This document shows positions 11,027-51,075 of a stretch of 64,000 nt of DNA, one piece after another (position 1 is the stretch's first letter; the number at the start of each line of letters is the position of its first letter). Made by a program: the position numbers and the translations under genes. Origin of the DNA: Phycisphaerae bacterium (lineage in GTDB: Bacteria; Chloroflexota; Anaerolineae; 4572-78; J111); contig JANQQF010000136.1 in NCBI GenBank assembly GCA_028285035.1, positions 22,875 through 86,874 on the forward strand. The letters run 5' to 3'. The notes below the pieces were generated by a model. The model ran no database searches and was not told the DNA's origin. It worked only from the letters and a program-made list of their open reading frames with translations.

Positions 11027-12185
11027 CTTTAAACCGCTCCACGACCACGGTGAGAAAATCATCAGGGTCGTCGATATTTGTCAGCACAACCAGGCCCCGC
11101 TGTTGGTCCGGCAACATCACCAAAACTGAGGTGAAGCTGTCATACGAGCCTTCATGGGCCAACACCTCACCATCAACCTCCCAACCCAGTGCATACTCAA
11201 TGCCATCGCCAGCATCAATCACAGGTTGCCACGTTTCAGTCAGATTCGCTTCGGATACCACGCGCGTTCCGTCAGGGGCCACGCCAAGATTGAGTTGGGT
11301 GATCAAATAACGCCCCATATCAATGACATTGGCTTTGATTGAGCCGGAGGGGGCCAAAGGATCACCAGTAAAATCATACGACTCGGCGATCACCACCTCA
11401 TCGCCTTCAAAAATGTGCGAGGCTGACATCTGCCCACTAGCCCGAGCATCTTCAACGGACAGGGTAGCCGTTTCCATTCCAATTGGATCAAAAATGCGTT
11501 CTTGTAGTTGGGCGGCGTATCCTTCATATACATCATCACTATTCTCATCAATCGCCAAAACTCCCAGATAGCCACTGACCGAACTGGCGATGTTACTGTA
11601 GCTAAACGTACCACCTGGCTCATCAAGTAATTCGGCTTCAGCGACAAGGTCAAATAAATCTTCGGCATAGGAGTCTTCAACGTCGAACTCTCCTTCAAGG
11701 TCATCAGGAATACCACTACTCATACTAAGGAGGTGTCTCATTGTAACAACATCAGTCACCTCGGATAATTCAAAATCTGGCACAAACGCCACCACAGGTT
11801 CATCCCATTCTAACAGCCCTTCATCGACCAAGGTCGCGATGAACATTGCGGTAATTGATTTGTGGGTTGAGCCGATGTGAAAAAGTGTTTCTTCAGTTAC
11901 AGGTTGATCTCCCGAAATATCACACACCCCAAACCCTTGCGCTAAAACAATCTCATTACCTTCAACCACAGCAATCGCCACGCCAGGGATTTCATACTCG
12001 ATCCGAGTTTCCTCAACAAACCTAGCAAAATTCGCTAACGAGTCATCTGTATCAGCCGATGACTCTGTCAATGAGGTAGGTTCTGCTGTCTCTGCAATAG
12101 CTGGTTCAGGGGGCGTTTCTTCCGCGCAAGCTGTTATCAGAAGCAATGTGAGCAGCAAGGGTATCATCAAATGAATATGTCGCAT
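11019..12185 (-). CDS. Serine beta-lactamase-fold lipoprotein (class C/esterase family)
   Basis: 388 residues, exported and lipid-anchored: the N-terminus ends in a lipobox LITAC with Cys20. The beta-lactamase/transpeptidase-like domain shows S106-T-H-K109, Y196-S-N198 and an HEG triad element near the end in place of KTG. HxG is typical of esterases, D-aminopeptidases and LACTB-like peptidases in this family and not of true AmpC enzymes. It probably hydrolyses esters or peptides at the cell surface. No resistance role should be assumed. An acidic linker (about 22-50) separates the anchor from the domain. Confidence 0.88.
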   Translation of the reverse strand: MRHIHLMIPLLLTLLLITACAEETPPEPAIAETAEPTSLTESSADTDDSLANFARFVEETRIEYEIPGVAIAVVEGNEIVLAQGFGVCDISGDQPVTEETLFHIGSTHKSITAMFIATLVDEGLLEWDEPVVAFVPDFELSEVTDVVTMRHLLSMSSGIPDDLEGEFDVEDSYAEDLFDLVAEAELLDEPGGTFSYSNIASSVSGYLGVLAIDENSDDVYEGYAAQLQERIFDPIGMETATLSVEDARASGQMSASHIFEGDEVVIAESYDFTGDPLAPSGSIKANVIDMGRYLITQLNLGVAPDGTRVVSEANLTETWQPVIDAGDGIEYALGWEVDGEVLAHEGSYDSFTSVLVMLPDQQRGLVVLTNIDDPDDFLTVVVERFKGL

Positions 12186-12237
12186 ATTTTTTCCTTATTT
12201 AGAGTGAGGTTGATCTAAACTAAAAGATTTTGTGGAC

Positions 12238-12265
12238 ACGGAAAACACGGATATCACGGAAACCC
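12238..12265. repeat. CACGGA short tandem motif in a 306-base gap
   Basis: CACGGA occurs three times within 28 bases (CACGGAAAACACGGATATCACGGA). The gap 12186-12491 otherwise holds only the divergent start regions of its two neighbours; I see no gene in it. Confidence 0.3.
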
Positions 12266-12491
12266 TTTTTAGAAATTCCGCCTTCCACATCTTCCGTACC
12301 CAAATCAACTGTCCAGATCACAAAAAATTTGAGGGTTTCCAAAAACACCTGTTTAGTTTACCAAATTTTCACAAAAGTACCCCAACTCACAAACCATCTT
12401 ATCATTTGATAAGGCACCACAACCTTTCATCGGTTACACTGCAGACATCACAAAAATACAAATCGCTCACGTAGCGAACTGGAGGATACAA

Positions 12492-13364
12492 ATGAAAATT
12501 GGATTTATTGGTTTGGGAATTATGGGTAGTCGGATGGCAGCGAATTTGCAAAAGAATGGGCACACATTGGTGCTGTATAACCGAACCAAAGCACGAGCCG
12601 ATGAGCTTTTGGCCAATGGGGCCAGTTGGGCCGACACACCCGCTCAGGTGGGAGAACAAGCCGAATTGGTTATCACCATGCTAGCCCACCCGCAAGCTGT
12701 CGAGGCAGTGGCTTTTGGCGAAGCAGGTTTGCTGGCCACTCTAAATTCAGGTGCATTGTGGATCAACTGTAGTACAGTCAATCCGTCGTTTTCGAAAGAA
12801 ATGGCGCAAGCCACAACAGCAAAACAAATTCGGTATTTAGAAGCGCCTGTGGCTGGCTCAAAAAATCAGGCAGCACAGGCCGAGTTGGTCTTCATTGTCG
12901 GTGGGGCAGCGGAGGATGTTGCAGAGGCGCAACCATTGTTCGAGGCAATGGGCAGTCGCGTGGCCCACGTGGGTGGGCACGGGCAGGGCACCGGCTTGAA
13001 GGTGGTCGTCAATACCCTGCTCGGCACCTCAATGGCGGCGTTTGCTGAGGCGCTTGTGCTGGGCGAGGCGCTGGGGTTGTCGCAGGAAATGCTCCTCAAC
13101 GTCTTGATTGGTGGCCCGGTTGTGCCCCCTTATATGACCTCGAAAAAGGAGAAGTTAGTCCAAGGTGACTTCGATCCCGAATTCCCATTACAGTGGATGC
13201 AAAAGGATATGCACTTGGCTGCTGTAACGGCGCAAGAGGTTGGCGTTACACTGCCCGTGGGAAATGTGACCAAAGATATGTATCGCCTCGCCATACGGCA
13301 GGGTCTGGGCGAGGCTGATTTCTCGGCAATTTATCAGATGTTTGGGGAGAAAGGCGAGGAGTAG
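12492..13364 (+). CDS. NAD(P)-dependent 3-hydroxyisobutyrate dehydrogenase-family reductase
   Basis: 290 residues, cytosolic. An N-terminal Rossmann fold carries GFIGLGIMGSRMA, and the YNRTKAR loop with a basic residue suggests NADPH. The beta-hydroxyacid dehydrogenase signature includes the catalytic Lys in GTGLKVVVNTLLG. A C-terminal all-helical domain completes the fold. Family members reduce glyoxylate or succinic semialdehyde (GLYR type) or oxidise 3-hydroxyisobutyrate or tartronate semialdehyde; sequence alone does not settle which. GGAGG precedes the ATG by 7 bases. No pathway neighbours. Confidence 0.9.
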   Translation: MKIGFIGLGIMGSRMAANLQKNGHTLVLYNRTKARADELLANGASWADTPAQVGEQAELVITMLAHPQAVEAVAFGEAGLLATLNSGALWINCSTVNPSFSKEMAQATTAKQIRYLEAPVAGSKNQAAQAELVFIVGGAAEDVAEAQPLFEAMGSRVAHVGGHGQGTGLKVVVNTLLGTSMAAFAEALVLGEALGLSQEMLLNVLIGGPVVPPYMTSKKEKLVQGDFDPEFPLQWMQKDMHLAAVTAQEVGVTLPVGNVTKDMYRLAIRQGLGEADFSAIYQMFGEKGEE

Positions 13365-36020: not shown

Positions 36021-37028
36021 ATGGACAGTATCATGAAGAAAGTACTTTTCATCGGTGGCTCGCTCAATCAAACAAAAATGACCCACGCTGTTGCGAAACA
36101 TTTGGAGGAGGATCACGACTGTTACTTTACCCCCTACTATTGTGACGGTCTATTTGAATTTGCCGCCCAAATGGGGTTGCTAGACTTTACCGCAATTGGT
36201 GGGGCTGCGCGCAGTCAATCGGAAGCTTATTTCGCAGAACATAATCTAAGAGTAGATTATGGCGGGCGTAGCCAAGATTATGACTTGTTTGTCACCACCA
36301 GTGACCTACTTATTCAGAAAAACATTCGAGGCAAGAGAATTATCTTAATTCAGGAAGGGATGACTGATCAGGAAAGCCTGATGTTTTATCTGGTAAAGTG
36401 GTTCAAAATTCCACGTTATCTCGCCAGCACCTCAACCAATGGTCTATCTGATGCGTATCGATATTTTTGTGTTGCCTCGGAAGGCTACAAAGAGCTTTTT
36501 GTCCGTAAGGGAGCCAATCCCGATAAATTAGTCGTGACAGGCATTCCAAATTTTGATAATGCGGCAGAATTCTTAAACAACGATTTCCCTCACAAGAACT
36601 ACGTATTGGTGGCGACATCGGATGCCCGTGAGACCTTCAAATTTGATAATCGAAAAGCGTTTATCCGGCAAGCGATTGAAATCGCAAAGGGGCGACAACT
36701 GATCTTTAAATTACACCCCAATGAAAGGGTTGGTCGCGCCACACAAGAGATTAAAGCATTGGCCCCAGATGCCTTGGTTTATCATCGGGAAAGTATTGAC
36801 CCCATGATCGCCAATTGTGATGTATTGGTCACGCAATACTCCACGGTTGTCTATCTTGGCATCGCTCTGGGCAAAGAGGTCCACTCCTATTTTGATCTAG
36901 AGATGCTTCACAAAATGACCCCAATCCAAAATGGAGGCACCTCTGGGCGAAATATTGCCAAAGTGTGTCGTCAACTTCTGGCCGAGCCAGAAACCGCGGG
37001 GGTTCTACAATATGCCAGTGCCGTCTAA
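36021..37028 (+). CDS. GT-B-fold glycosyltransferase/CDP-glycerol-transferase-like protein
   Basis: 335 residues; an in-frame ATG at 36033 (MKKVLF) is an alternative start. The N-terminus VLFIGGSLNQTKMTHAVAKHL is a Rossmann-type beginning; the C-terminal half has IFKLHPNERVG, a donor-phosphate motif, and DVLVTQYSTVVYLGIALGKEV, a pattern of CDP-glycerophosphotransferases, capsule (KpsC/S-like) transferases and UDP-GlcNAc 2-epimerase-like proteins. A transferase role fits because the next gene makes a CTP-activated sugar. It overlaps that gene by 17 bases. A hydrolysing epimerase role cannot be excluded. Confidence 0.72.
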   Translation: MDSIMKKVLFIGGSLNQTKMTHAVAKHLEEDHDCYFTPYYCDGLFEFAAQMGLLDFTAIGGAARSQSEAYFAEHNLRVDYGGRSQDYDLFVTTSDLLIQKNIRGKRIILIQEGMTDQESLMFYLVKWFKIPRYLASTSTNGLSDAYRYFCVASEGYKELFVRKGANPDKLVVTGIPNFDNAAEFLNNDFPHKNYVLVATSDARETFKFDNRKAFIRQAIEIAKGRQLIFKLHPNERVGRATQEIKALAPDALVYHRESIDPMIANCDVLVTQYSTVVYLGIALGKEVHSYFDLEMLHKMTPIQNGGTSGRNIAKVCRQLLAEPETAGVLQYASAV

Positions 37029-37821
37029 GGTTGTTACTGTTGTTCAGGCCCGAACTGGTTCCTCTCGGCTTCCCAACAAGGTTCTTCTTCCATTACTAGA
37101 CCGCCCAGCGCTATTGTGTATGGTTGAGCGTGTTCAAGCGGCTCAGTTAACAGGACAGGTTGTCGTCGCTACAACCACCGATCCAAGCGATGATGCCATT
37201 GCTAGCCTATGTGACCAAGCTGATATCCCCTGTTTTCGAGGCCACCCCACAGATTTACTTGATCGACACTATCAATTAGCCAGGCAGTATCAGGCCGAAG
37301 TTGTTGTCAAAATCCCCTCGGATGTCATTTTAATTGACCCAATGGCTATTGACCGTGTGCTAGGGGTATATCTGGCCAATCCAGACGCCTATGATTTTGT
37401 CAGCAATTTGCACCCGCAAAGTTATCCCGATGGTAATGATGTTGAAGTGATGTCAATGAACGCCCTTGAGATGGCCTGGCGGGAAGCAATCCGTGATTTT
37501 GAGCGCGAACACACGACCCCCTTTTTCTGGGAAAACCCAGATCGATTTCGGCTTGCCAATGTCACTTGGGAGACGGGGCTAGATTACTCGATGAGCCATC
37601 GTTGGGTGCTTGATTACCCTGAAGATTATGAGCAGATCAGGCAAATTTATGAAGCGCTATACCCAAAAAATCCCAACTTTGGCCTGAGTGACATATTAGA
37701 TCTACTCGAACGAGAGCCGTCTATTTACGACATCAACGCCAAATATATCGGTGTCAATTGGTATCGCAATCATCTGGATGAACTCAAAACGATTTCTGCT
37801 GATGAAACAAAATCACTTTAG
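37012..37821 (+). CDS. SpsF-like cytidylyltransferase (CMP-sugar synthase family)
   Basis: 269 residues, GT-A-like nucleotidyltransferase fold. The signature VVQARTGSSRLPNKVLLPLLDRPAL at the N-terminus is the CTP-binding segment of the SpsF/NeuA/KdsB group. The ATG at 37012 places it 7 codons in; the longer frame back to 36931 lies inside the previous gene. A metal-binding DGND follows (SYPDGNDVEVM). It would couple a sugar acid to CMP. SpsF is the spore coat polysaccharide enzyme name; its exact substrate here is unknown. Confidence 0.87.
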   Translation: MPVPSKVVTVVQARTGSSRLPNKVLLPLLDRPALLCMVERVQAAQLTGQVVVATTTDPSDDAIASLCDQADIPCFRGHPTDLLDRHYQLARQYQAEVVVKIPSDVILIDPMAIDRVLGVYLANPDAYDFVSNLHPQSYPDGNDVEVMSMNALEMAWREAIRDFEREHTTPFFWENPDRFRLANVTWETGLDYSMSHRWVLDYPEDYEQIRQIYEALYPKNPNFGLSDILDLLEREPSIYDINAKYIGVNWYRNHLDELKTISADETKSL

Positions 37822-37856
37822 GTAAAAAGTCAGAGATTTATCAAGGAAACCAACTT

Positions 37857-38714
37857 ATGAACAACCAAGACGTTAAACAATTAGAGGCAATGGCCTTCAA
37901 TGTGCGCGAGCACATCATTCGGATGTCCACCGATGGCGGTTGCTTTATCGGTGCATCCCTCTCCTGTGCTGATCTCGTTGTCTATCTCTACACGCAATTC
38001 CTCAATCTCAACAAAGACAACCTTGATGACCCAAACCGAGATTACCTTTTGTTATCAAAAGGGCACGACGTTCCCGCCTTGTATGGCACATTCGTTGAGT
38101 TAGGTTGGTTTGAGCCAGAACGACTGCAAAACCATCTCAAAACCAATGACGATATTTATTGGCATCCCAATCGTAAAGTGCCAGGAATCGAGTTTCACTC
38201 TGGCTCCTTAGGCCATTTGTTATCAGTGGCAGTCGGCATCGCGATGGATTGCAAAATGCGAGGCCAGACGAACAAAGTCGTCGTCATTACCGGCGATGGC
38301 GAACTCAATGAAGGCTCGAACTGGGAAGCCTGTTTGGTCGCCCAAGCTTACAAGCTCGACAACCTCGTCATCATCGTAGACCGCAATGAATTTCAGGCCA
38401 ACATTCGCACCGAGGAGTTAATCCCTCTTGAGCCGCTGGAGAACAAGTTTGAGGCCTTTGGTGGGGCCGTTCGCCGGGTAAACGGGCACGACTTTGTTGA
38501 ATTGGACGAAGCCTTGGACACCGTCCCCTTCACGCCGGGACAGCCCAGCGTTCTCATCGCTGACACCGTACGAGGCCGAGGCCTGCCCAGCATCGAAAAA
38601 CGGGCTGATCGTTGGTTTTGCAACTTCAGCCACGAAGAGGTCGAGCAACTGATTGAAGAGTTACACGGCAATCAAGCCGCCACGTTAACGTCAGAGACAT
38701 TGATTGTGCGATAA
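37857..38714 (+). CDS. Transketolase N-terminal (ThDP/PP-domain) subunit
   Basis: 285 residues, the first half of a split transketolase. The thiamine diphosphate/Mg motif GDGELNEGSNWEACLVAQAYKLDNLVIIVDRN, and conserved His in LLSKGHDVPALYG and EFHSGSLGHLLS, are intact. Such two-gene transketolases transfer two-carbon ketol units and are common in secondary sugar loci. It needs the C-terminal subunit at 39338-40249, with which the SMI1 gene lies between. Part of a long co-directional run. Confidence 0.93.
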   Translation: MNNQDVKQLEAMAFNVREHIIRMSTDGGCFIGASLSCADLVVYLYTQFLNLNKDNLDDPNRDYLLLSKGHDVPALYGTFVELGWFEPERLQNHLKTNDDIYWHPNRKVPGIEFHSGSLGHLLSVAVGIAMDCKMRGQTNKVVVITGDGELNEGSNWEACLVAQAYKLDNLVIIVDRNEFQANIRTEELIPLEPLENKFEAFGGAVRRVNGHDFVELDEALDTVPFTPGQPSVLIADTVRGRGLPSIEKRADRWFCNFSHEEVEQLIEELHGNQAATLTSETLIVR

Positions 38715-38738
38715 ATAAGGAGGTCTACAGATAAGCTT

Positions 38739-39332
38739 ATGGAAACCCTGATAAAACGATTAGATTCGTGGCTAAAAAATAATCGACCTGACTATTATGC
38801 CAAATTACAGCCTGGTCTTTCGGGGGAAGCAATCGCTGAATTTGAAAAAACGTTAGGTTTGGAGATGCCAACAGCATTCAAAGCGTTGTATCAATGGCGA
38901 AACGGTCAGCAGCCAAGTAGTTTTGAAGGCCTTCAATACAATCAGTCATTTATGAATATTGAAGCAATCAAAGAGGCTCGGCAAGTTTTGAATGACCTAT
39001 TTGAAGGTGAGGATGCTGAAGAAGAGAATTGGTGGAAGCCGCAGTGGGTCCCCTTTTTAGACAATGGTGGGGGCGATCACCTTTGTATCGATATGGATGG
39101 CACATTCACCGGACAAAAGGGGCAAATTATCGAATTTTGGCACGATTGGGAAGATAGAAGCATTCAATATGCCAATTTAGAAAATTGGCTTGAGACGTTT
39201 GTGACCTCTCTAGAAAAGAATTTATGGATGGATGACGATGGAGATTTTCCCCTAGTAGATGAAGACGCTTGGGAGACCTATTACACTACACACAATCCAG
39301 GATATCCTATAGAAAATGCCGCTGGGGATTAA
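38739..39332 (+). CDS. SMI1/KNR4 family protein inserted between transketolase subunits
   Basis: 197 residues. The SMI1/KNR4 (SUKH) fold is shown by LSGEAIAEFEKTLGLEMPTAFKALYQWRNGQ near residue 28-60, the PSSFEGLQYNQSFMNIEAIKEA segment, WWKPQWVPFLDNGGGDHLCIDMDGT and GQIIEFWHDWEDRSIQYANLENWLETF. Members are often immunity proteins of polymorphic toxins, or regulators. It is 24 bases after the transketolase N stop and 5 bases before the C start, so it is probably cotranscribed; its place inside a sugar pathway is unusual. AAGGAGG lies about 14 bases before the ATG. Confidence 0.88.
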   Translation: METLIKRLDSWLKNNRPDYYAKLQPGLSGEAIAEFEKTLGLEMPTAFKALYQWRNGQQPSSFEGLQYNQSFMNIEAIKEARQVLNDLFEGEDAEEENWWKPQWVPFLDNGGGDHLCIDMDGTFTGQKGQIIEFWHDWEDRSIQYANLENWLETFVTSLEKNLWMDDDGDFPLVDEDAWETYYTTHNPGYPIENAAGD

Positions 39333-39337
39333 AATAC

Positions 39338-40249
39338 ATGCAAAATTATGAAAACACACTCAAAGACATTGCGCTGGCTGATGAACGCTACATCGTAATG
39401 ACCGCCGAAAATCGGGCGGCGATTCGCAATCTACCCGATATTTTAGGCGACCGTTTTATTGACACCGGTATCACCGAGCAAGCGATGATCGGCACGGCAG
39501 CTGGCTTGGCCCTGCGCGGTCGCATCCCCGTGGTGCACGCCTTGGCCTGCTTTCTCACGATGCGGGCCTTTGAGTTTATTCGGACGGATGTTGGCATCCC
39601 TGGCTTGCCTGTCAAATTGGTCGGTGGAGTGCCAGGCTTTTTATCTGATGGCAATGGCCCAACCCACCAAGCCATTGAGGATGTGGCTCTGATGCGGGGC
39701 ATCCCCCCGATGCAGGTCTTCTGCCCCGCCGATGCCGAGGATTTGGTTATTGGCTTGCCAAAAGTCTTGGATAGCCCCAACCCCGTTTATATTCGGCACA
39801 ATGGCTTACCGGCTGCCGTGAAACACGACACTGACTTCGAACTTGGCAAAGCCGAGACCATTGCCGATGGTTCGGATGTGACGATTTTGGTCTACGGAAT
39901 GCTACTAAAACAGGCCCTTGAGGCCAAAGACATTTTGACGGAACAAGATGTCTCTGTCCGCCTACTCAATATGCGAATGGTCAAACCACTCGATGAAGCA
40001 GCGGTTCTACAGGCAGCGGCTGAAACGTCACTGCTCATCACCCTTGAGGATCACTTCATCAACGGTGGGCTGTACACCGCCATTTGTGAGTTGCTCATAA
40101 AAAATCAAACACTGGCCCCAGTTTTGCCCATCGCCCTTGACAATCGCTGGTTTAAGCCAGCTCTGTTGAATGCGGTCCTTGAATACGAAGGCTTTACGGG
40201 ACCACAAATTGCCGAAAAAGTAACAACTAAGCTTTCTCAAATGAATTAA
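39338..40249 (+). CDS. Transketolase C-terminal (pyrimidine and C-domain) subunit
   Basis: 303 residues from the ATG at 39338, just after the SMI1 stop; the frame back to 39269 overlaps the SMI1 gene and is not conserved. The catalytic Glu is in FIDTGITEQAMIGTAAGLAL, and the pyrimidine-domain motif SDGNGPTHQAIEDVALMRGIPPM and the C-domain GSDVTILVYGMLLKQAL are intact. Together with the N subunit it should form a working enzyme, so the SMI1 gene interrupts the gene order only. Confidence 0.93.
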   Translation: MQNYENTLKDIALADERYIVMTAENRAAIRNLPDILGDRFIDTGITEQAMIGTAAGLALRGRIPVVHALACFLTMRAFEFIRTDVGIPGLPVKLVGGVPGFLSDGNGPTHQAIEDVALMRGIPPMQVFCPADAEDLVIGLPKVLDSPNPVYIRHNGLPAAVKHDTDFELGKAETIADGSDVTILVYGMLLKQALEAKDILTEQDVSVRLLNMRMVKPLDEAAVLQAAAETSLLITLEDHFINGGLYTAICELLIKNQTLAPVLPIALDNRWFKPALLNAVLEYEGFTGPQIAEKVTTKLSQMN

Positions 40250-40275
40250 CATCAAATCATTTTCGGAGGAAAATT

Positions 40276-41607
40276 ATGCCAAACGGTGTCAAATTTAACG
40301 CCGATTACCCCGACATCACCGAGTCGGACAAGTTGTATGCCCGCGCTACAGGACTTATCCCCTCTTACAGCCAACTCATCGCCAAAGGACCAACCCAACA
40401 CGTCAATGGCATCGCCCCAAAATATTTACACCGAGCAAAAGGCTCACACGTGTGGGACGTGGATGGCAATGAATTTCTGGATTTCAATATGGCCAGTGGC
40501 CCCATCTCATTGGGCTACGCCTATGATCGCGTTGATGAGGCTATCAAAAAACAGTTAGCCGATGGTCTAAACTTTTCCCTGATGCACCCCCTGGAGGTAG
40601 AGGTGTCTGAATTGGTGCGAGACATCGTGCCCAACGCTGAGTCGGTTCGTTTTAGTAAAACTGGCGCGGATGTGACCAGTGCGGCAGTGCGGCTAGCTCG
40701 GGCTTACACAGGACGAGATAAAGTGTTGTGTTGTGGCTACCACGGCTGGCACGATTGGTATATCGGTATCACTACTCGAAACGCGGGTATTCCCCAAGCG
40801 GTACAGGATTTGGTGCACACCTTCCAATTTAATGATATCGAGTCGGCCAAAGCAGCCTTGGATCAAGATACTGCCTGCGTGATTATCGAGCCGATGGTTT
40901 TTGCTTGGCCGGATGAAGATTTCTTGCCCCAACTCAAAGCGTTATGTGAGGCTAATGGCGCACTGTTGATTTTAGATGAGATGTGGACAGGGTTCCGCCT
41001 GGCCTTGGGTGGCGCGCAGGAACGATTTGGGGTTGTCCCTGATTTAGCTACCTACTCGAAAGCTGTGGCCAATGGGATGCCAATTTCAGTCTTAACGGGA
41101 CGAGCAGATGTGATGCAAATTTTGGATGAAAGTGTCTTCTTCTACACCACCTTTGGGGGCGAAACGCTCTCGTTAGCGGCGATGCAGGCCACGCTCCTCG
41201 AAATGCGGGAGAAACAAGTGCAGGCTCACCTGGCCGAACAGGGGCAAAAACTGTTGGATGGCTACAACCAAATCGCTCAAGATTTAGATCTAGGTTACAC
41301 CAAATGTATCGGATACCCGGCCCGCAGCCTCATCACCTTCGATGCGTCAGCCGGAGATCCATTGCTGCTGAAATCATTGGTGCAACAAGAGATGATCAAA
41401 CGCGGCGTTCTCTGGTCCGGTTTCCATAATATGTGCTTCTCGCACAGCGATGAAGATGTTGATTATGCCCTCAACGTCTATCTTGAGGTGTTACCCATCT
41501 TGAAAGAGGCTGTCGCAGAAGACAAGGTGGCGGATATGTTACGTGGTGAACCCGTTCAGCCTGTCTTCCGTAAGTTGAGCGATTTTAATATGAAACCAAA
41601 GAAGTAA
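40276..41607 (+). CDS. Class III PLP aminotransferase, glutamate-1-semialdehyde aminomutase-like
   Basis: 443 residues. PLP enzyme with Schiff-base Lys in [14 protein letters not shown], the aspartate contact in [16 protein letters not shown], and [37 protein letters not shown]. It is near HemL in sequence but is placed in a sugar cluster, and lacks porphyrin neighbours, so a sugar amino-transfer role is more likely than heme synthesis. GGAGG 8 bases before the ATG. Probably adds an amino group to a keto- or aldehyde-sugar intermediate. Confidence 0.9.
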
Positions 41608-41614
41608 GGCTAAT

Positions 41615-42421
41615 TTGATGAATCAATTTTCCCTGGAAGGAAAAGTAGCTGTTGTCACGGGGGCGCTCGGCTTGTTGGGGCGAAATCATAGTGAGGCTTT
41701 GGCGCAGGCTGGCGCGTCTGTCATTGTCTGTGATTTAGATCAAACCGCCTGTGAGGCATTCGCCAATGAATTGCCAAATAACGCGCTAGGCATCTCACTC
41801 GATGTCACCTCGCCAGAGTCAATTCGCCAAGCTGTTGACACCATTTTGCAGGAATTTGGTCACCTTGATGTGTTGATCAACAACGCAGCTATCAATGACA
41901 AGTTTGAAGACCCGGCTCTGGCTGGTAAGCAATCAAAGTTTGAGAATTACCCGCTGGAAATGTGGCAGAAGTCGCTCGAAGTCAATGTCACAGGTGTATT
42001 TTTATGCGCCCAGATTATGGGCGCTCAAATGGCCAAACAAGGCTCCGGTAGCATCGTGAATATTGCCTCAACGTATGGAGTTGTCGGCCCCGATCAGTCG
42101 ATTTATCGCACCCCAGATGGAGAACAACCATTCTTCAAATCACCTGCCTATCCCGCAACAAAAGGCGCGGTCATCGGCTTCACCCGCTTTTTAGCGGCGT
42201 ATTGGGGAAATGTCGGGGTTCGAGTCAACACCCTTACGCCAGGCGGGGTTGAGGCAGGGCAGGATGAGTACTTCATCACCAATTATTCAGATCGCACCCC
42301 TTTGGGTCGGATGGCTCAGCCCAATGATTACAAAGGAGCCATCGTTTTTCTCGCCAGCGACGCGTCGATGTATATGACTGGGGCCAATTTGGTTGTCGAT
42401 GGAGGGTGGACGACGTGGTAA
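41615..42421 (+). CDS. Short-chain dehydrogenase/reductase, PtmA-like
   Basis: 268 residues. NAD(P) site [26 protein letters not shown], catalytic Ser in [10 protein letters not shown] and YPATKGAV. The insert ending [27 protein letters not shown] and the overall start [16 protein letters not shown] resemble the PtmA reductases of legionaminic acid loci. It likely reduces a keto intermediate. Starts 7 bases after the aminotransferase stop; its own stop overlaps the next start (TAATG). Confidence 0.9.
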
Positions 42422-42924
42422 TGGACACCTCGGAGTTACAGGACAAAGCCCGTCAGATTCGGCTGCTGTTGACCGACTGTGACGGGGTTCTGACCGATAC
42501 GGGCGTTTACTACTCGGCAAATGGCGAGGAGCTTAAGCGCTTTTCCATTCGTGATGGGATGGGTGTTGAGCGGCTCCGAAAGTTTGGCAACGTTGATGTT
42601 GGAATTATCACCGGTGAGAACTCTGACTCGGTGAAAAAGCGGGCTGAGAAATTAAAAATTACCGAACTCCATTTGGGAATCAAAGACAAATTAGCCTTGC
42701 TTGATGAAATTATGACCCGGCTTGACCTGGAACCAGGACAAATCGCATACATTGGTGATGATACCAATGATGTACCGATTATGGAGCGTGTGGGGCTGAG
42801 GGCTTGCCCTGCAGATGCCACCTCCTTTGCCAAAGCCATCGCCGATTACATTTGCCCAAACAAAGGCGGGCACGGTGCCTTTCGCGACTTTGCTGAGTTT
42901 ATCATTGCGGCAAAGCAGATATAA
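42421..42924 (+). CDS. KdsC-like HAD phosphatase
   Basis: 167 residues from ATG 42421 (GTG 42406 is possible). The HAD C0 motifs LLLTDCDGVLTDTGVYY, ITGENSDSV, Lys in LGIKDKLALL and YIGDDTNDVPIM match KDO-8-phosphate phosphatase and NeuNAc-9-phosphatase type enzymes; no cap domain. It would remove the phosphate that NeuB- or KdsA-type condensation leaves. Overlap of one base with the SDR stop implies coupled translation. Confidence 0.9.
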   Translation: MDTSELQDKARQIRLLLTDCDGVLTDTGVYYSANGEELKRFSIRDGMGVERLRKFGNVDVGIITGENSDSVKKRAEKLKITELHLGIKDKLALLDEIMTRLDLEPGQIAYIGDDTNDVPIMERVGLRACPADATSFAKAIADYICPNKGGHGAFRDFAEFIIAAKQI

Positions 42925-42992
42925 ATCATTCCAATTTTTACAGAAAGTCCAGATTTAAATAATAACCACCATTTTAGGGGAGAATTATAATA

Positions 42993-43889
42993 ATGGAACG
43001 CAAAATTAAAGTTGGAGGTCGTTATATTGGTGATGGTGAGCCGGTTTACATCATCGCTGAAATTGGGATCAATCACAATGGCTCGTTAGCCACGGCTAAA
43101 AAGATGATTGAGGGAGCCATTTTTGCGGGCTGTGATGCGGTTAAATTTCAAAAGCGAACCCCAGAATTATGTGTCCCGCGTGACCAGTGGGAGATTGAGC
43201 GGGATACGCCTTGGGGGCGAATGACTTACATCGAGTATCGTCACAAAATCGAATTTGGTCAGGACGAGTTCGCTGAGATTAATCGCTTTTGCCAAGAACG
43301 TGGGATTGATTGGTTTGCCTCTTGCTGGGATGAAGAGTCGGTTAAATTCATCGATCAGTTTGAGCCAGCGTTGTACAAAGCCGCCTCTGCCTCCTTAACA
43401 GACCATAATTTGTTAAAAATGAAAAAGGCGACAGGCAAGCCTTTGATGATTTCAACCGGGATGTCAGAGCGGGCTGAAATTGACAATGCAATTGCTGCGG
43501 TCGGGACGGACAACTTACTGGTTGCCCACTCCACCTCAGCGTACCCCTGCCCAGTGGAGGAGCTAAATTTACGAATGATCCAAACGCTGCAAAATGACCT
43601 TCCTGGGGTTCCCATTGGTTATTCAGGCCACGAGGTCGGCTTGGCCCCGACTTGGGCTGCTGTAGCACTGGGAGCCAGCTTTATTGAACGGCATATCACC
43701 CTAGATCGCGCTATGTGGGGATCGGACCAGGCAGCCTCGGTCGAAATTATGGGGCTTCACAATTTAACCCGCAATATCCGTGATATTGAAAAGGCTTTGG
43801 GTGATGGGGTCAAACGAGTGTATGAGAGCGAATTAAAAGCCCGACAAAAGCTACGGCGGGTGCAGAGCAGTGTAAACGGCACAAAATAA
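42993..43889 (+). CDS. NeuB-like PEP-condensing sialic/ulosonic acid synthase without SAF domain
   Basis: 298 residues. The synthase barrel begins VYIIAEIGINHNGSLATAKKMI and has AVKFQKRTP, WFASCWDEESVKFID, KAASASLTDHNLL, STGMSERAEID, HSTSAYPCP and PIGYSGHEVGL with a metal-binding His near SFIERHITLDRAMWGSD. It would join phosphoenolpyruvate to an aldose to make a 3-deoxy-ulosonic acid. Typical NeuB, LegI and PseI add a C-terminal antifreeze (SAF) domain of about 60 residues; this protein stops before it. AGGGGAG precedes the ATG by 10 bases. Preferred acceptor unknown. Confidence 0.9.
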   Translation: MERKIKVGGRYIGDGEPVYIIAEIGINHNGSLATAKKMIEGAIFAGCDAVKFQKRTPELCVPRDQWEIERDTPWGRMTYIEYRHKIEFGQDEFAEINRFCQERGIDWFASCWDEESVKFIDQFEPALYKAASASLTDHNLLKMKKATGKPLMISTGMSERAEIDNAIAAVGTDNLLVAHSTSAYPCPVEELNLRMIQTLQNDLPGVPIGYSGHEVGLAPTWAAVALGASFIERHITLDRAMWGSDQAASVEIMGLHNLTRNIRDIEKALGDGVKRVYESELKARQKLRRVQSSVNGTK

Positions 43890-43913
43890 TCCAAGGATCA
43901 TCAAGCAGAGCTA

Positions 43914-45029
43914 ATGAAAATCCGAAAACTTGATGTAACGAACAAAAGAGATGTGCGGCAATTTATTGACTTTCAATTTGAGCTTTATCGTGATTGTCCA
44001 CAATGGGTGCCTCTACTTCGATCCTCGTCCGCAGAGACGATGAATCCAAAAAAGCATCCGTTTTATGAACACTCCATTGCTGATTTTTATGTCGTCGAGA
44101 GCGAAGGGCAGACGGTGGGTCGAATGGCAATGCTGCATAATCGAAATTATGCGGCGTTCAAAAAGCGAAACGCCTCATTCTTTGGCTACTTTGACGTTAT
44201 TGAAGATCAAGAGGTTGCCTATAATTTATTCGATTTGGCTGTGGAATGGACCCAAAAACACGGTTTGACCGAAATCATCGGCCCCCGTGGGGTGATGGGG
44301 GTCGATGGGATGGTCCTCGTTGAAGGGTTTGAGCATCGTGCCTCTCTCGGGATGACCTACAATTATCCTTACTACGACACCTTTATCAAAAAGGCTGGTT
44401 TTTCAAAGGATGCGGATTATCTATCCGGGTATTGGCCCTTCAGCCCAGGTATGAGTGAACGATATCACCAACTGGCTAGAAAAGTTGGCGAACGACGAAA
44501 TATCCAGCTCAAGTCCTTTTCATCAAAAAAGGAACTCAAGGCGTGGGCCGACCGTTTAATCGACACCCACCATCATGCTTTCGGCGACCTACACAGCTAC
44601 TATCCACCAACGGATGCCGAAATGGAGATGGTGCTCGACACGATCATGCAAATCACAGACCATCGTCTCATCAAGTTGGTGATGCGAGATGATGAAATCA
44701 TCGGGTTTCTGTTTAGCTATCACGATATTTCTGAAGGGTTACAAAAAGCCAAAGGGCGATTATTTCCCTTTGGCTGGTATCACATCCTGCGAGAGCGTTC
44801 ACGGACAAAATGGATCAATGTGAACTCAATTGGTTTGTTACCTGAGCATCGTGGCAGTGGGGGGAGCACCATTTTGCAATCAAGTATCGAGGCAACCGCT
44901 CAAGAAATGGGGTTTGAACATGCCGAGTTTATCCAAATTCACGAAGAAAATGCCAGAAGCATTATCGATTTAGAGAAATATGGCGTGGATTGGTACAAAC
45001 GTCATCGTCACTATCGACGCTTGTTGTAA
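43914..45029 (+). CDS. Large GNAT-related protein of unknown function
   Basis: 371 residues, a size and pattern seen in a widespread uncharacterised group (N-terminus MKIRKLDVTNKRDVRQFIDFQFELYRDCPQWVPLLR, central GPRGVMGVDGMVLVEGF). Two GNAT-like halves appear, the second having VNSIGLLPEHRGSGGSTILQSSI, the acetyl-CoA binding loop. In this location it might acetylate the amino sugar made by the cluster, but the family is also found elsewhere, so it could be independent. Starts 24 bases after the NeuB-like stop. Confidence 0.75.
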   Translation: MKIRKLDVTNKRDVRQFIDFQFELYRDCPQWVPLLRSSSAETMNPKKHPFYEHSIADFYVVESEGQTVGRMAMLHNRNYAAFKKRNASFFGYFDVIEDQEVAYNLFDLAVEWTQKHGLTEIIGPRGVMGVDGMVLVEGFEHRASLGMTYNYPYYDTFIKKAGFSKDADYLSGYWPFSPGMSERYHQLARKVGERRNIQLKSFSSKKELKAWADRLIDTHHHAFGDLHSYYPPTDAEMEMVLDTIMQITDHRLIKLVMRDDEIIGFLFSYHDISEGLQKAKGRLFPFGWYHILRERSRTKWINVNSIGLLPEHRGSGGSTILQSSIEATAQEMGFEHAEFIQIHEENARSIIDLEKYGVDWYKRHRHYRRLL

Positions 45030-45916: not shown

Positions 45917-47065
45917 TCAAGCAACTTGTCCCATCGAGCGTCCTGTGGGATTGGCGTTTGCAATGACCATCTCATAATCGGCTAAAAGTTGATCTAAAAT
46001 CGTACTCCAATTTTTTGCCTCGGCATACTTACGGCTACCTACGCCAAGTTGAGCGGTGCATTCTTTATCAAAAACCAGTTGCCGTACCTTTGCCACCAAA
46101 TCGTGTTGACTTTCAGGCTCGAAATAGAGACCGTTCACGTCATCAACCACATTTTCCAATACGCCACCGGAGCGGGGTGCAATGACTGGTAAGCCAGACG
46201 CCATCGCCTCCAGCACAACATTCCCCAGGGTTTCATTGGCCGCAGGAAAGACAAAAATATCAGCAGTAGCATAGGCAGCGGCTAACTCTTCGCCTCGCAA
46301 ATAGCCTGTAAATACCGTTGGGGTATCGGCAAATCGTTGTTCTAAATCGGGGCGAGCAGGCCCATCACCTACAATGGCCAGATTGACCTCCGGCAAGGCT
46401 GACAGCACAGGGCGCAACCAATCCACTCGTTTTTCGGGCGATAAACGGCCCACATAAAGAAGCAGCGGGGCTTCTGGTCGTTCTGGACTTAATCTATTGC
46501 GCCATTCATCCGAACGACGAGCAGGGTTATAGAGTTGGGTATCGACCCCTCGGCTCCAGATTTTTGTTCGTTCAAAGCCGTGTTCAAGTAATTCAGTTTC
46601 CGTTGCTTTTGAAGGACACAAATTAAGGTCAGCTTGATTATGCAACCAACGAAGATAGGTCCACAGGGGGTCACGTAGCAAGCTAAAGCCCCACCGCGCC
46701 GCAAAGCCCGGAATATCGGTATGGTAGGAGGCCACAATCGGCACCTCAAGGGCCCGAGCTTGGTTTAATCCAACCACACCAAGGGACACAGGACCAACAA
46801 GGTGTACTAAATCAGGTTGAAATGCGGTCAAGCGATCCTTCACATCAGCCCGAGGCGGAACAAGTTTTAATTCGGGATATAGTGGGAATTGGATAGCGGG
46901 TAGGCCGACAACAGGGGTATTGGCGTAACGGTCAGGGGCACCTTCCGGTCCGAAGAGCAAGCTTTCGTGTCCCCGCATTGCCAAATGATCTAACAAATAA
47001 CAAATTGTATTGGTTATTCCATCAATTTTGGGTAAAAAGGTTTCAGCGAAAAAAGCGATGCGCAT
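45917..47065 (-). CDS. GT4 family glycosyltransferase
   Basis: 382 residues from ATG 47065; the frame upstream to 47146 is not conserved. The GT4 features are N-terminal [33 protein letters not shown] (typical acceptor loop after the Gly-rich start), [27 protein letters not shown] donor site and [28 protein letters not shown] with the ExxxxxxxE motif. Family members of this type add mannose or glucose to lipid acceptors (PimB/MgtA like). Soluble or peripheral. Acceptor unknown. Confidence 0.9.
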
Positions 47066-47331
47066 TATCTTGGTTTGAACTTTCCGAACCTGTTGACCAA
47101 GTACACTATAAGCATAAAATCTTAACAAATAGACAAACTCGACCAAGGTTACAACAGGTTAATTAAGTATCTTTTAAGGGGATATTAAGGTTTAGTTAAA
47201 TTCACGTAAAGTTAGCTTTATGTTAAGTGTGTCATCGTTCAAAATTAGAAAATTGAAACCTGTAGCACCTTAAAAGTTTGGCGGTTTATCCCGCTAAAAT
47301 TTCTCTAAAATATTCCACCAAACACTTAACT
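47066..47331. other. 266-base gap with repeated GTTAA motifs
   Basis: Lies between the GT4 start and the PhyH stop on the minus strand. Within about 47155-47230 GTTAA/GTTTA/GTTAG motifs recur (GGTTAATTAAG, GGTTTAGTTAAA, AAGTTAGC, TGTTAAG), the last two 11 bases apart, a spacing seen for response-regulator direct repeats. No gene. Confidence 0.3.
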
Positions 47332-48243
47332 CTACGATTTATTTAAGCGTTGGGCCAATAAATTTTTCAAAATCGGGGCGGGTACCCAAGCACCTTCGAT
47401 TTTGTCATAAACGGGTACATTTTCGGGGAGAAGATTGGCTTCTTTCAGCCTTTCTGCTAATTCAGGATTCATCGGCTGATAGCCCAATTCGGTCCGAATA
47501 TTGTTATAGTAGTTCTGGTGATTGTAAAAGTGTTCATTTTCCTGACCATAGGCCACAAACATCGAATATTTGGGACCAGTGATGTAGCTACCAGAGTGCA
47601 AGGCGCGGGGATCAAAAATGAGGCAGTCGCCAGGCTCAGTGGCAATCCACTCAGCGTTGGAGGCCCACATCTGTAGTTTGGGGGAAACATAACTTAGGGC
47701 ACCAAACCAGTTTAATTTGGCTTCGTCAATCCGGCGTTTTAGAGTGACTGTGGGCGTAGGTTGATGACTGCTATTGATAAAGCCAAGACGGAATTGACTC
47801 TCCTCGTAACTCTGTAAGTAGATAGCGACCCGAACGAGTTTGTATGCAGCTTCGGTCTCGTTCCAATCTGGCCCCTGGCCAAATTTACGATTAACGCTAT
47901 CCCGGTGCCAGGAGATGGCCGAGAACCCGACGTGTAAGTCATTATGTTGTAAAAAGCGGATGTCTGGGCCAAGTAACTCTCGAACCGTCGTCAACAGTCG
48001 TTCATTAAAAATGATTGGCCAAAATTCTTCGGTTTTTGCTACCCCATCAGGTAAATTCCAGGAGGTTTGTTTACCGCTTTGATCAAAACCCCGGCCAGAC
48101 ACCGACGAAAAATCACCACGACTAATGCCCGATAACTTCTCCATACGTTGAATGTATGACTCAACCTCGTCTTTCGATAGCAAGCCGCGCACAATGGCAA
48201 ATCCTTTTTCCTTAAATTCCTGACGCAATGTCTCGTAGTTCAT
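47332..48243 (-). CDS. Phytanoyl-CoA dioxygenase-family Fe(II)/2-oxoglutarate oxygenase
   Basis: 303 residues. The metal-binding HxD is in ISWHRDSVNRKFG and the distal His in FDPRALHSGSYITGP with an Arg for 2-oxoglutarate binding nearby. The fold is complete and cytosolic. Members hydroxylate lipids, amino acids or natural products. AGGAGG is 7 bases before the ATG. Downstream of a subtilase on the same strand, separated by a palindrome, so likely transcribed on its own. Confidence 0.85.
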   Translation of the reverse strand: MNYETLRQEFKEKGFAIVRGLLSKDEVESYIQRMEKLSGISRGDFSSVSGRGFDQSGKQTSWNLPDGVAKTEEFWPIIFNERLLTTVRELLGPDIRFLQHNDLHVGFSAISWHRDSVNRKFGQGPDWNETEAAYKLVRVAIYLQSYEESQFRLGFINSSHQPTPTVTLKRRIDEAKLNWFGALSYVSPKLQMWASNAEWIATEPGDCLIFDPRALHSGSYITGPKYSMFVAYGQENEHFYNHQNYYNNIRTELGYQPMNPELAERLKEANLLPENVPVYDKIEGAWVPAPILKNLLAQRLNKS

Positions 48244-49932: not shown

Positions 49933-51075
49933 TTAGCCTCCTTTGGGTGGGGTAGGCAGGAGTTGACACAGCTCTTCAGCAATGGTAATCACAGCTTCAG
50001 GTTTGGCCAATTGAGCTGCATTTCGAGACATCTCTTGCAAAGCGGTATCATCAGAGTCAAGCCAATCACTAATCAATTGTGTGATTTGTTTGGCTGTTTT
50101 GGCGTATACTCCTGCCTGATGGTCTTTAACATAAGTTACATTACCATATTCCTGACCAGGAATATAACTATAAATCAAGGGGGGTAATCCGACACTAAAT
50201 GCCTCCGAAATTGTACCAGGACCGGCTTTTGTAATCAGGATATCAGCAGCGTGCATTAATTCTGGCATATTGTCAACAAACCCATAAATTGTTGTCGGGA
50301 TCTCCCATTGAACCCCGTCTAACTTGCGCTTCAAAAGCTGATTCCGACCACAGACAATGACGAGTTGAGCTTGGTCAATCGCTTTGGCTACGTTACGGGC
50401 GATCTCAAAAATTCGGCCAAATCCCTCACCACCCCCAATCAATAAAATAACCCATCGGTCAGCAGATAATCCCAACCTCAACCGAACTGAGTGTTTATCT
50501 GATAGCTGTCGGGTAAACTTTAAACTAATGGGTTGACCACATACCTCAACTTTTTCAGGGGGCATCCCCAGCTTAATAGTTGAACGTCGGGCTTCTTCAG
50601 TAGAGACAAGACAACGCGTGACTTTTGGGCAAACCCAAAACGGATGAATCGTGACCATATCGGTCACCACTGTGACAAAAGGCACGTCAAGGTTAGCTTT
50701 GTCACGCCACTTAATGCCTAGGTGATTCATTGCTGGGTGCACGGATACAACAAGATCAGGTCTAACCTCTTCAAGATAATCAGCCACTTGCTTGTTTAAT
50801 ATGGGAGACACTCCTGAAAGAATCAGCCGATAGCCTTGTAATCGCGTTGTACTCAACCAAAATAATCGCCAAATAAGCAAGCCTGGTCCAGTCAGCCAGC
50901 CATACATGTTGGGAATTTTATTAACTGGCCAGGGGGTATGATGTTTCCAAACATCTTGTATCAAAATGTCATATTGATCTGGATAGAGATAGTGGATTGC
51001 GTCAGCGATGGCTTGGGCTGACGCACGGTGTCCGCCGCCCGTATCGGACATAAGAAACAAAATTCGCTTTTTCAT
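49933..51075 (-). CDS. GT28/MGDG synthase-type glycosyltransferase
   Basis: 380 residues, GT-B fold. The N-terminal FLMSDTGGGHRASAQAIADAI is the MGDG-synthase/UgtP signature, followed by PDLVVSVHPAMNHLG, VTVVTDMVTIHPFWVCPKVTRCLVSTEEA and the donor site ITKAGPGTISEAFSVGLPPLI. Enzymes of this group add glucose or galactose to diacylglycerol. Membrane-associated by function. It is on the same strand as the subtilase but separated by 86 bases. Confidence 0.9.
   Translation of the reverse strand: MKKRILFLMSDTGGGHRASAQAIADAIHYLYPDQYDILIQDVWKHHTPWPVNKIPNMYGWLTGPGLLIWRLFWLSTTRLQGYRLILSGVSPILNKQVADYLEEVRPDLVVSVHPAMNHLGIKWRDKANLDVPFVTVVTDMVTIHPFWVCPKVTRCLVSTEEARRSTIKLGMPPEKVEVCGQPISLKFTRQLSDKHSVRLRLGLSADRWVILLIGGGEGFGRIFEIARNVAKAIDQAQLVIVCGRNQLLKRKLDGVQWEIPTTIYGFVDNMPELMHAADILITKAGPGTISEAFSVGLPPLIYSYIPGQEYGNVTYVKDHQAGVYAKTAKQITQLISDWLDSDDTALQEMSRNAAQLAKPEAVITIAEELCQLLPTPPKGG

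Follow-up and report, generated by a model that had tools for sequence, protein, structure and literature searches.

In the Kdo8N route of Shewanella, the dehydrogenase KdnB and the aminotransferase KdnA oxidise and then aminate an already existing ulosonic acid. As for Kdn (3-deoxy-D-glycero-D-galacto-nonulosonic acid), published work describes a Kdn-9-phosphate synthase of Prymnesium parvum that takes mannose-6-phosphate as its sole substrate among seven sugars (PMC6200933), Kdn within the teichulosonic acid of Streptomyces walls (PMC11481543), and SCO4873-SCO4882 as the teichulosonic genes of S. coelicolor (PMC13011467). Here we analyse a ten-gene cluster at 36021-45029 of a stretch of 64,000 nucleotides (the window) from a Chloroflexota genome (assembly GCA_028285035.1, contig JANQQF010000136.1), whose synthase of NeuB type, phosphatase of KdsC type and cytidylyltransferase together indicate a cytidine monophosphate (CMP)-ulosonic acid, as the original prediction had it. 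Judged from its genes, the cluster is a new variant of nonulosonic acid biosynthesis with a putative product, probably a sialic-acid-like surface sugar bearing an extra amino group. More specifically, we give an even chance to the reading that the genes form a single pathway to a CMP-activated aminated derivative of Kdn. The genes are as follows.

36021..37028, + strand: g1, GT-B protein; no Pfam match, fold from a predicted model
37012..37821, + strand: g2, CTP_transf_3 cytidylyltransferase; PF02348, 89.5 bits
37857..38714, + strand: g3, transketolase N-terminal subunit, substrate residues changed; PF00456
38739..39332, + strand: g4, SMI1/KNR4 (SUKH-1) protein between both transketolase halves; PF09346, 84.7 bits
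39338..40249, + strand: g5, transketolase C-terminal subunit (pyr and C domains), substrate residues changed; PF02779, PF02780
40276..41607, + strand: g6, class III pyridoxal phosphate (PLP) aminotransferase; PF00202, 150.3 bits
41618..42421, + strand: g7, SDR oxidoreductase; PF13561
42421..42924, + strand: g8, KdsC-like HAD phosphatase; TIGR01670, 153.2 bits
42993..43889, + strand: g9, NeuB-family synthase of 298 residues; PF03102, 245 bits; no SAF or other second Pfam domain
43914..45029, + strand: g10, GNAT N-acyltransferase; PF00583, 25.8 bits

All ten genes run in one direction, as had been claimed, and neighbours are either separated by 5-68 bp or overlap by 1-17 bp, the start positions of g2 (37012), g5 (39338), g7 (41618) and g8 (42421) being improved ones. 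Hereafter AT denotes the class III aminotransferase g6 and TK the transketolase, with TKN and TKC for its g3 and g5 halves. In the proposed pathway, g9 would condense mannose-6-phosphate with phosphoenolpyruvate (PEP) to Kdn-9-phosphate, from which g8 would strip the phosphate; g7 would then oxidise one hydroxyl of Kdn to a carbonyl, and at this carbon AT would install the amino group. The CMP-sugar would be made by g2 in place of NeuA, g1 would transfer the activated sugar, and g10 would acylate the amine in some Chloroflexota. Families, main catalytic residues, co-occurrence and the changed TK residues are seen in the sequence, while all the steps are inferred.

Conservation and co-occurrence of the gene set

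With g9 as the query, 80 genome-contig loci were fetched, which are the best 80 of 584 relatives, i.e. a sample of close relatives mostly from metagenome-assembled genomes, and AT is present in 45 of them. These 45 loci carry g1 in 36 cases, g2 in 38, TKN in 36, TKC in 39, SDR in 43 and HAD in 35, while among the 35 AT-less loci g2, TKN and TKC never occur, and g1, SDR and HAD are found in 2, 5 and 30, respectively; some of the absences are due to contig ends or dropped overlapping frames. All eight core genes exceed the threshold in 23 of the 45, and in 22 with the same order and strand, so that chance clustering was rejected. Moreover, the AT-bearing loci span Chloroflexota, Bacteroidota, Ignavibacteriota and Myxococcota, and the cultured Methylomagnum ishizawai (Pseudomonadota) carries a full copy of the cluster on a plasmid (NZ_AP019784.1, 160187-177485; locus L164). 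On a plasmid of Hymenobacter psoromatis (L167), NeuB is present and the other cluster genes are absent within the stretch examined. Several members are found fused, namely g2 with TKN in L060 and L062, TKC with AT in L048, and the NeuB and HAD domains in the database protein P0098.

The same set emerges at the genome level, where 296 genomes evenly drawn from one phylum (that of genome G010) were searched for five proteins. AT was found in 44 genomes, NeuB in 111, TKC in 35, SDR in 47 and the cytidylyltransferase in 46; these are related genomes rather than independent ones. All the 44 AT genomes also carry NeuB, SDR and the cytidylyltransferase, and TKC accompanies them in 34, which speaks against TK and AT being members of an unrelated pathway, a possibility that was thus rejected. 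Among the exceptions, the 35th TKC genome (G082) has a TKC frame with seven stops, the two extra cytidylyltransferase genomes (G249 and G284) carry NeuB and SDR but no AT that reaches the threshold, and the third extra SDR genome (G233, SDR 46% identical) has NeuB. In G014 and G015, the cluster-type TKC is distant from AT and NeuB. In G300, G097, G142, G150, G154 and G025, the matches lie on separate contigs or far apart and yet the complete set is still present (the regions of G025, G154 and G300 were inspected directly). The co-occurrence, including these six dispersed cases, is strong evidence that the co-inherited genes constitute one pathway, which we consider very likely. When 151 genomes were sampled from the phylum to which the Anaerolineales genome G019 belongs, AT was not found, and therefore no co-occurrence test could be drawn from that phylum.

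The claimed families were largely borne out by Pfam and NCBIfam, namely both TK halves, SDR, the KdsC-like HAD, NeuB and GNAT. The count of ten genes also stands, though only nine had been named; the tenth is g4, for which no homologue was found among the open reading frames of the 80 related and seven further loci. Since it is without a homologue in these 87 loci, g4 is probably an unrelated insertion.

The NeuB-like synthase and the order of steps

The position of amination relative to the NeuB reaction can be approached through relatives of g9 that occur without AT. In fact, as many as 67 of the 111 NeuB genomes in the 296-genome sample have no AT, and NeuB together with the phosphatase, without adjacent cluster-type AT, TK or g2, is found in Chlorobi, Streptomyces, Saprospiraceae and further Chloroflexota loci. 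For example, HAD and NeuB stand in the Chlorobi loci without AT, TK, SDR or g2 alongside, and in the eight Chlorobi genomes searched, the best matches to AT are only 33-37% identical. Another group, termed type I here (L033, L075, L149-L152 and L155), is also AT-less, and its SDR accompanies HAD and NeuB together with a NeuA-type domain and Gfo/Idh; the latter was assigned by Pfam in L033 and L155, by phmmer in L075 and by eye in L149-L152, and in L149 and L152 it runs off the end of the stretch. In L149-L152 and L155 the NeuA and HAD parts are fused (by Pfam in L155, by HAD matches and by eye in the others).

An alignment was made of 45 AT-bearing, 22 Chlorobi, 7 type I and 2 Streptomyces NeuB proteins with NeuB, SpsE and PseI as references, and 12 positions of N. 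meningitidis NeuB, which we take to be catalytic or binding, were compared. The g9 group keeps eight of the 12 (E25, K53, Q55, K129, Y186, H215, H236 and D247), and equivalents of E25, K53, K129, H215, H236 and D247 are present in all four groups. Moreover, 29 near-invariant columns are common to the AT-bearing, Chlorobi, type I and Streptomyces proteins and differ from NeuB, SpsE and PseI. In the tree, the tight clustering with characterised NeuB that would have spoken against the original prediction is not seen: the SAF-less NeuBs, g9 included, form their own clade away from NeuB, SpsE and PseI, though these three references are partial with very long branches, and 16 of the 22 Chlorobi rows were dropped for thinning. 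Within this clade AT-bearing and AT-less NeuBs are intermixed, the AT-bearing state needing three changes. Against the family models, g9 scores 238.8 for NeuB_NnaB (TIGR03569) with a cut-off of 399.65, and 194.3 for PseI (TIGR03586) with a cut-off of 340.25. Those SAF-less NeuBs annotated as N-acetylneuraminate synthase probably do not make Neu5Ac. A short NeuB of Azospirillum (45% identical) beside a legionaminic cluster was considered as a counter-example and rejected, as that cluster has its own neuB and the protein shares only 15 of 24 signature residues.

Because NeuB and the phosphatase occur without AT, and because the signature columns are common to the groups, the substrate of NeuB is probably the same with and without AT, and amination probably follows NeuB. 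With this, g9 is inferred to be a Kdn-9-phosphate synthase. Since the type I loci carry SDR, HAD and NeuB with Gfo/Idh and NeuA, we read AT, TK and g2 as standing in for the latter pair, and AT and Gfo/Idh behave as if they were alternative users of one ketone.

The phosphatase agrees with such an assignment. It passes the cut-off of the KdsC subfamily model TIGR01670 (153.2 versus 106.95 bits), and its best NCBIfam match is the Kdn-9-phosphate phosphatase model of B. thetaiotaomicron, NF058599. At the positions aligned to E56 and K67 of BT1713, presumably the specificity residues, E and K are kept in all the 65 homologues of at least 100 bits (a count that left out the HADs fused to NeuA, with 59-86 bits), while the KdsC structure 3ij5 has R and T there. 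As these BT1713-type residues are kept throughout, the substrate of g8 is probably a nonulosonic acid 9-phosphate. At the first of the two positions (E56), the PDB entry 4hgq differs from 3e81.

An adenosine 5'-phosphosulfate (APS) kinase adjoins the loci with SDR, NeuA-HAD and NeuB, as seen in L152 at 11835-12917 (by Pfam), and longer proteins in L149 (13574-15364) and L150 (14614-16374) resemble it in their first residues; sulfation is possibly indicated by these neighbours.

Transketolase, aminotransferase and the predicted activating and transferring enzymes

The split TK has an altered active site. Residues are numbered as in E. coli TktA, to which the window and 33 loci with both halves were aligned; 35 N and 39 C subunits were also aligned to the split TK of Carboxydothermus. 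The equivalents of H66, H100, D155, N185, E411, H473 and R520 are conserved apart from a single gap at H66 and another at E411. In contrast, H26 has become F in 34 of 35 TKN (one gap), H261 is replaced in all 35, by W according to MAFFT and by F according to HMMER, so that the register is unsure, D469 is N in 39 of 39 TKC, and H461 is V, I or F in the same 39 when compared with the split TK, or F, L or I when aligned to TktA; an RWF motif is found in 33 of 34 loci. From TK structures we assume that H26, H261, H461 and D469 hold the acceptor sugar phosphate, while the kept histidines hold the two-carbon thiamine diphosphate (ThDP) intermediate. We thus expect the cluster TK to be an active enzyme with an unusual partner, and, because the residues for the ketol-ThDP are kept while those for the sugar-phosphate acceptor are changed, its probable target is the side chain of the sugar acid. 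The cluster thereby gives a setting for a TK with an unusual active site.

A bolder proposal, which we regard as improbable, is that SDR oxidises Kdn at C8, TK removes C8-C9 and AT aminates the resulting C7 aldehyde, giving 7-amino-3,7-dideoxy-heptulosonic acid, while TK-less genomes would make 8-amino-Kdn. In 8-keto-Kdn, C8-C9 would form a hydroxymethyl ketone, which is the kind of head group recognised by TK, and the changed TK would offer aromatic residues at the usual sugar-phosphate binding site. If true, this would be a nonulosonic acid chain cut by a transketolase.

As for AT, the original label of a PLP enzyme resembling glutamate-1-semialdehyde (GSA) aminomutase holds at the level of the class III family, and the PLP lysine is kept. 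GSA aminomutase activity itself was rejected, as g6 scores 237.2 bits against the hemL model TIGR00713 with a cut-off of 527.3, and HemL positions 156 and 163, in what we take to be the gating loop, fall into gaps in all 45 proteins compared. In the PDB, g6 matches GSA aminomutases best (188.6 bits), followed by C-6' aminotransferases (7lm0, 141.8 bits), which act after a dehydrogenase on the exocyclic carbon of aminoglycosides. A comparison of three aminotransferases from TK-less sets with the others found no discriminating column. Cluster-type AT matches in the 296-genome sample are 51-69% identical, and it is for this close type that the co-occurrence holds; more distant AT relatives show no bond with the pathway, since those on haloarchaeal plasmids (44%, no NeuB or TK alongside) and in Shinella (39.6%) sit in other contexts. 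Relatives of g7 also occur at AT-less loci, with 46% identity in G233 and 253-278 bits in L149-L152. A parallel combination is seen in a Chlorobi genome (G005; L106, 5929-18701), with a g2-like cytidylyltransferase, a distant class III AT (34%), an SDR and a distant NeuB, together with PseB-like, PseC-like and acetolactate-synthase-like ThDP proteins assigned by eye.

For g2, the cytidylyltransferase family was confirmed (Pfam CTP_transf_3), and the SpsF label finds no support beyond the family level; the Methylomagnum copy is publicly annotated as 'glycosyltransferase family protein'. A NeuA-type enzyme was sought in 24 of the 44 AT genomes and in eight Chlorobi genomes, and found in 2 of the 24 (G009 and G097) versus all eight. 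Since only 2 of the 24 have such a match, g2 is likely the CMP-nonulosonic acid synthetase. As for g1, the predicted model confirms the claimed GT-B fold and resembles NeuC as well as transferases, which also bears on the claim that a hydrolysing epimerase (NeuC, LegG or PseG) is missing: there is no family match, though the fold leaves that role to g1 as an alternative. The motifs Q-E-G, HP and S-T/S occur in all the 33 g1 proteins compared, the window copy being without a Pfam family match, and D/E-D/E-G, HP and S are presumably the motifs of bacterial CMP-sialic-acid transferases. We regard g1 as a probable nonulosonic-acid transferase, with a NeuC-like epimerase as the alternative.

The GNAT had been proposed as the acylating member; its family assignment stands, but a core role was rejected, as g10 is present in only 5 of the 80 loci. 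The g10 model (pLDDT 75.5) best matches tandem GNAT structures, with the glucosamine N-acetyltransferase 5kf1 as the top Foldseek match at 11% identity. Relatives (37-48%) occur in 15 of the 151 genomes of the G019 phylum, 12 of them among its 13 NeuB genomes, distant from NeuB; because of this distance the family is not tied to the cluster, and g10 is a lineage-specific addition in some Chloroflexota.

Further along the window, genes judged by eye from their translations are GT4-like (45917-47146, - strand) and MGDG-synthase-like (49933-51075, - strand). Genes for PhyH-type oxygenases are repeatedly seen in the neighbourhood of SAF-less NeuB genes, both in Chloroflexota-like loci and in Azospirillum:

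47332-48243 of the window, - strand: PhyH-type oxygenase
L001, 13063-13998: PhyH-type oxygenase
L004, 2695-3666: PhyH-type oxygenase
L168, 9779-10528: PhyH-type oxygenase

Alternative readings and known systems

Several other readings of the cluster deserve to be weighed. According to the original prediction, TK, SDR and AT build an amino-aldose phosphate, to which NeuB then adds PEP. The genes are the same and lie in one operon, five NeuB columns (W66 included) split the AT-bearing from the Chlorobi proteins, and in aminoshikimate pathways TK likewise precedes the PEP-condensing enzyme; nevertheless this order is disfavoured and seems unlikely, with 67 of 111 NeuB genomes lacking AT and with the 29 columns common to AT-bearing and AT-less proteins that intermix in the tree. 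At the split columns 66, 163, 181 and 279, Streptomyces agrees with the AT-bearing group, while at column 66 type I has mostly Q where AT-bearing and Streptomyces proteins have W. It might also be imagined that the cluster serves two sugars of one glycan, NeuB and HAD making plain Kdn, while a second, cytidylyl-activated amino sugar would come from g2, TK and AT. In G025, 0.6 Mb indeed separates the module CTP-TK-AT from SDR-HAD-NeuB, and NeuB is used without AT elsewhere; with NeuB in 44 of 44 AT genomes, a single cytidylyltransferase in the cluster, and 22 of the 24 AT genomes tested giving no match of NeuA type, we find such a division quite unlikely. Least credible, and in our view very improbable, is an ordinary sialic, legionaminic or pseudaminic pathway with extra genes: its NeuB and CTP transferase families are present, but g9 falls far below the NeuB_NnaB and PseI cut-offs and has no SAF domain, the ten genes give no dehydratase, DegT-type aminotransferase or 2-epimerase match in Pfam or NCBIfam (the absence of a dehydratase being as originally described), and the GT-B fold that g1 shares with NeuC is shared with transferases too.

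Another proposal concerns the last steps only and is compatible with a single pathway to aminated Kdn, namely that the amino sugar acid ends up lipid-linked or of lipid type instead of becoming a polysaccharide unit. Among the loci in which NeuB is followed by at least 1.2 kb of sequence, an FA_hydroxylase-family gene is found in 35 of 42 AT-bearing ones (32 within 600 bp of NeuB) versus 0 of 20 in Chlorobi, which suggests a lipid link; an SMR transporter is present in 25 of the 42 and an LPG_synthase_TM protein in 4, and downstream of the Methylomagnum cluster come genes for LplT, a GNAT N-acyltransferase and a lysophospholipid acyltransferase. Furthermore, PMC6200933 reports a Kdn sphingolipid in Emiliania huxleyi. 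The product may thus end on a lipid, but no such gene occurs in all lineages and g10 is the sole candidate in the window operon, and we hold this only as a tentative possibility. The FA_hydroxylase-family gene mostly lies directly after NeuB, an example being L007 9789-10586.

Returning to the single pathway to a CMP-activated aminated Kdn, a number of observations weigh against it. Four of the 12 N. meningitidis NeuB positions (N74, T110, E134 and N184) differ in the g9 group, and the 29 columns are a signature at the level of the alignment, which may or may not line the pocket; because of the five split columns, a single substrate for all the NeuBs is not certain. The g8 score for NF058599 (163.6 bits) is below its cut-off of 180, the HAD match is absent in 10 of the 45 AT loci (partly from dropped overlapping frames), 10 of the 44 AT genomes have no TK, and AT itself was not found among the 151 genomes sampled from the G019 phylum. 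In G003, NeuA adjoins a second, long NeuB and may serve another sugar, which weakens the Chlorobi control. Likewise the equivalence of the Streptomyces locus L077 to the S. coelicolor teichulosonic cluster is putative, the likeness to BT1714 is presumed at the level of the family, and the pathway is a prediction from genes, its enzyme activities and product included.

In the searchable open-access literature, no description of TK combined with nonulosonic acid genes was found, and in the parts available, PMC12342839 has no such cluster and the Leptospira paper PMC3438082 no transketolase. With the set conserved as described, the claim of a candidate undescribed pathway is supported, and seven to eight enzymes kept as a set across phyla point to a surface sugar undescribed in the literature searched. 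For finding further producers, g2, AT, SDR and NeuB can serve as a marker set, and Methylomagnum ishizawai and Hymenobacter as cultured hosts in which to search for the product.

Among the known systems, the CMP-Kdn pathway (BT1714/BT1713 of B. thetaiotaomicron, and Prymnesium parvum) resembles the cluster in its NeuB-family synthase, in CMP activation and in a HAD phosphatase with the residues aligned to E56 and K67 of BT1713, whereas the cluster adds SDR, class III AT and the changed split TK, and has g2 instead of a NeuA-type enzyme. The teichulosonic (Kdn) wall genes of Streptomyces share a SAF-less NeuB with the same signature columns; there, a NeuA-HAD protein lies just upstream (by eye, with HAD and NeuA matches), no cluster-type AT, TK or g2 is adjacent, and the best AT in two genomes is 38% identical. 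In the PtmA/PtmF legionaminic branch of Campylobacter and Plesiomonas, an SDR likewise goes with NeuB, PtmA being likened by description only, while the cluster is without a dehydratase, DegT aminotransferase or 2-epimerase match; its AT-less relatives carry Gfo/Idh and NeuA, like PtmA, PtmF and LegF in PMC4481668 (Table 5). The split TK of Carboxydothermus hydrogenoformans (6yak/6yaj) has the same two-subunit architecture and ThDP residues, but H, H, H and D at positions 26, 261, 461 and 469, where the cluster has F, W/F, V/I/F and N. Finally, the Kdo8N route differs from the cluster in using other enzyme families, a C8 acid and no TK.

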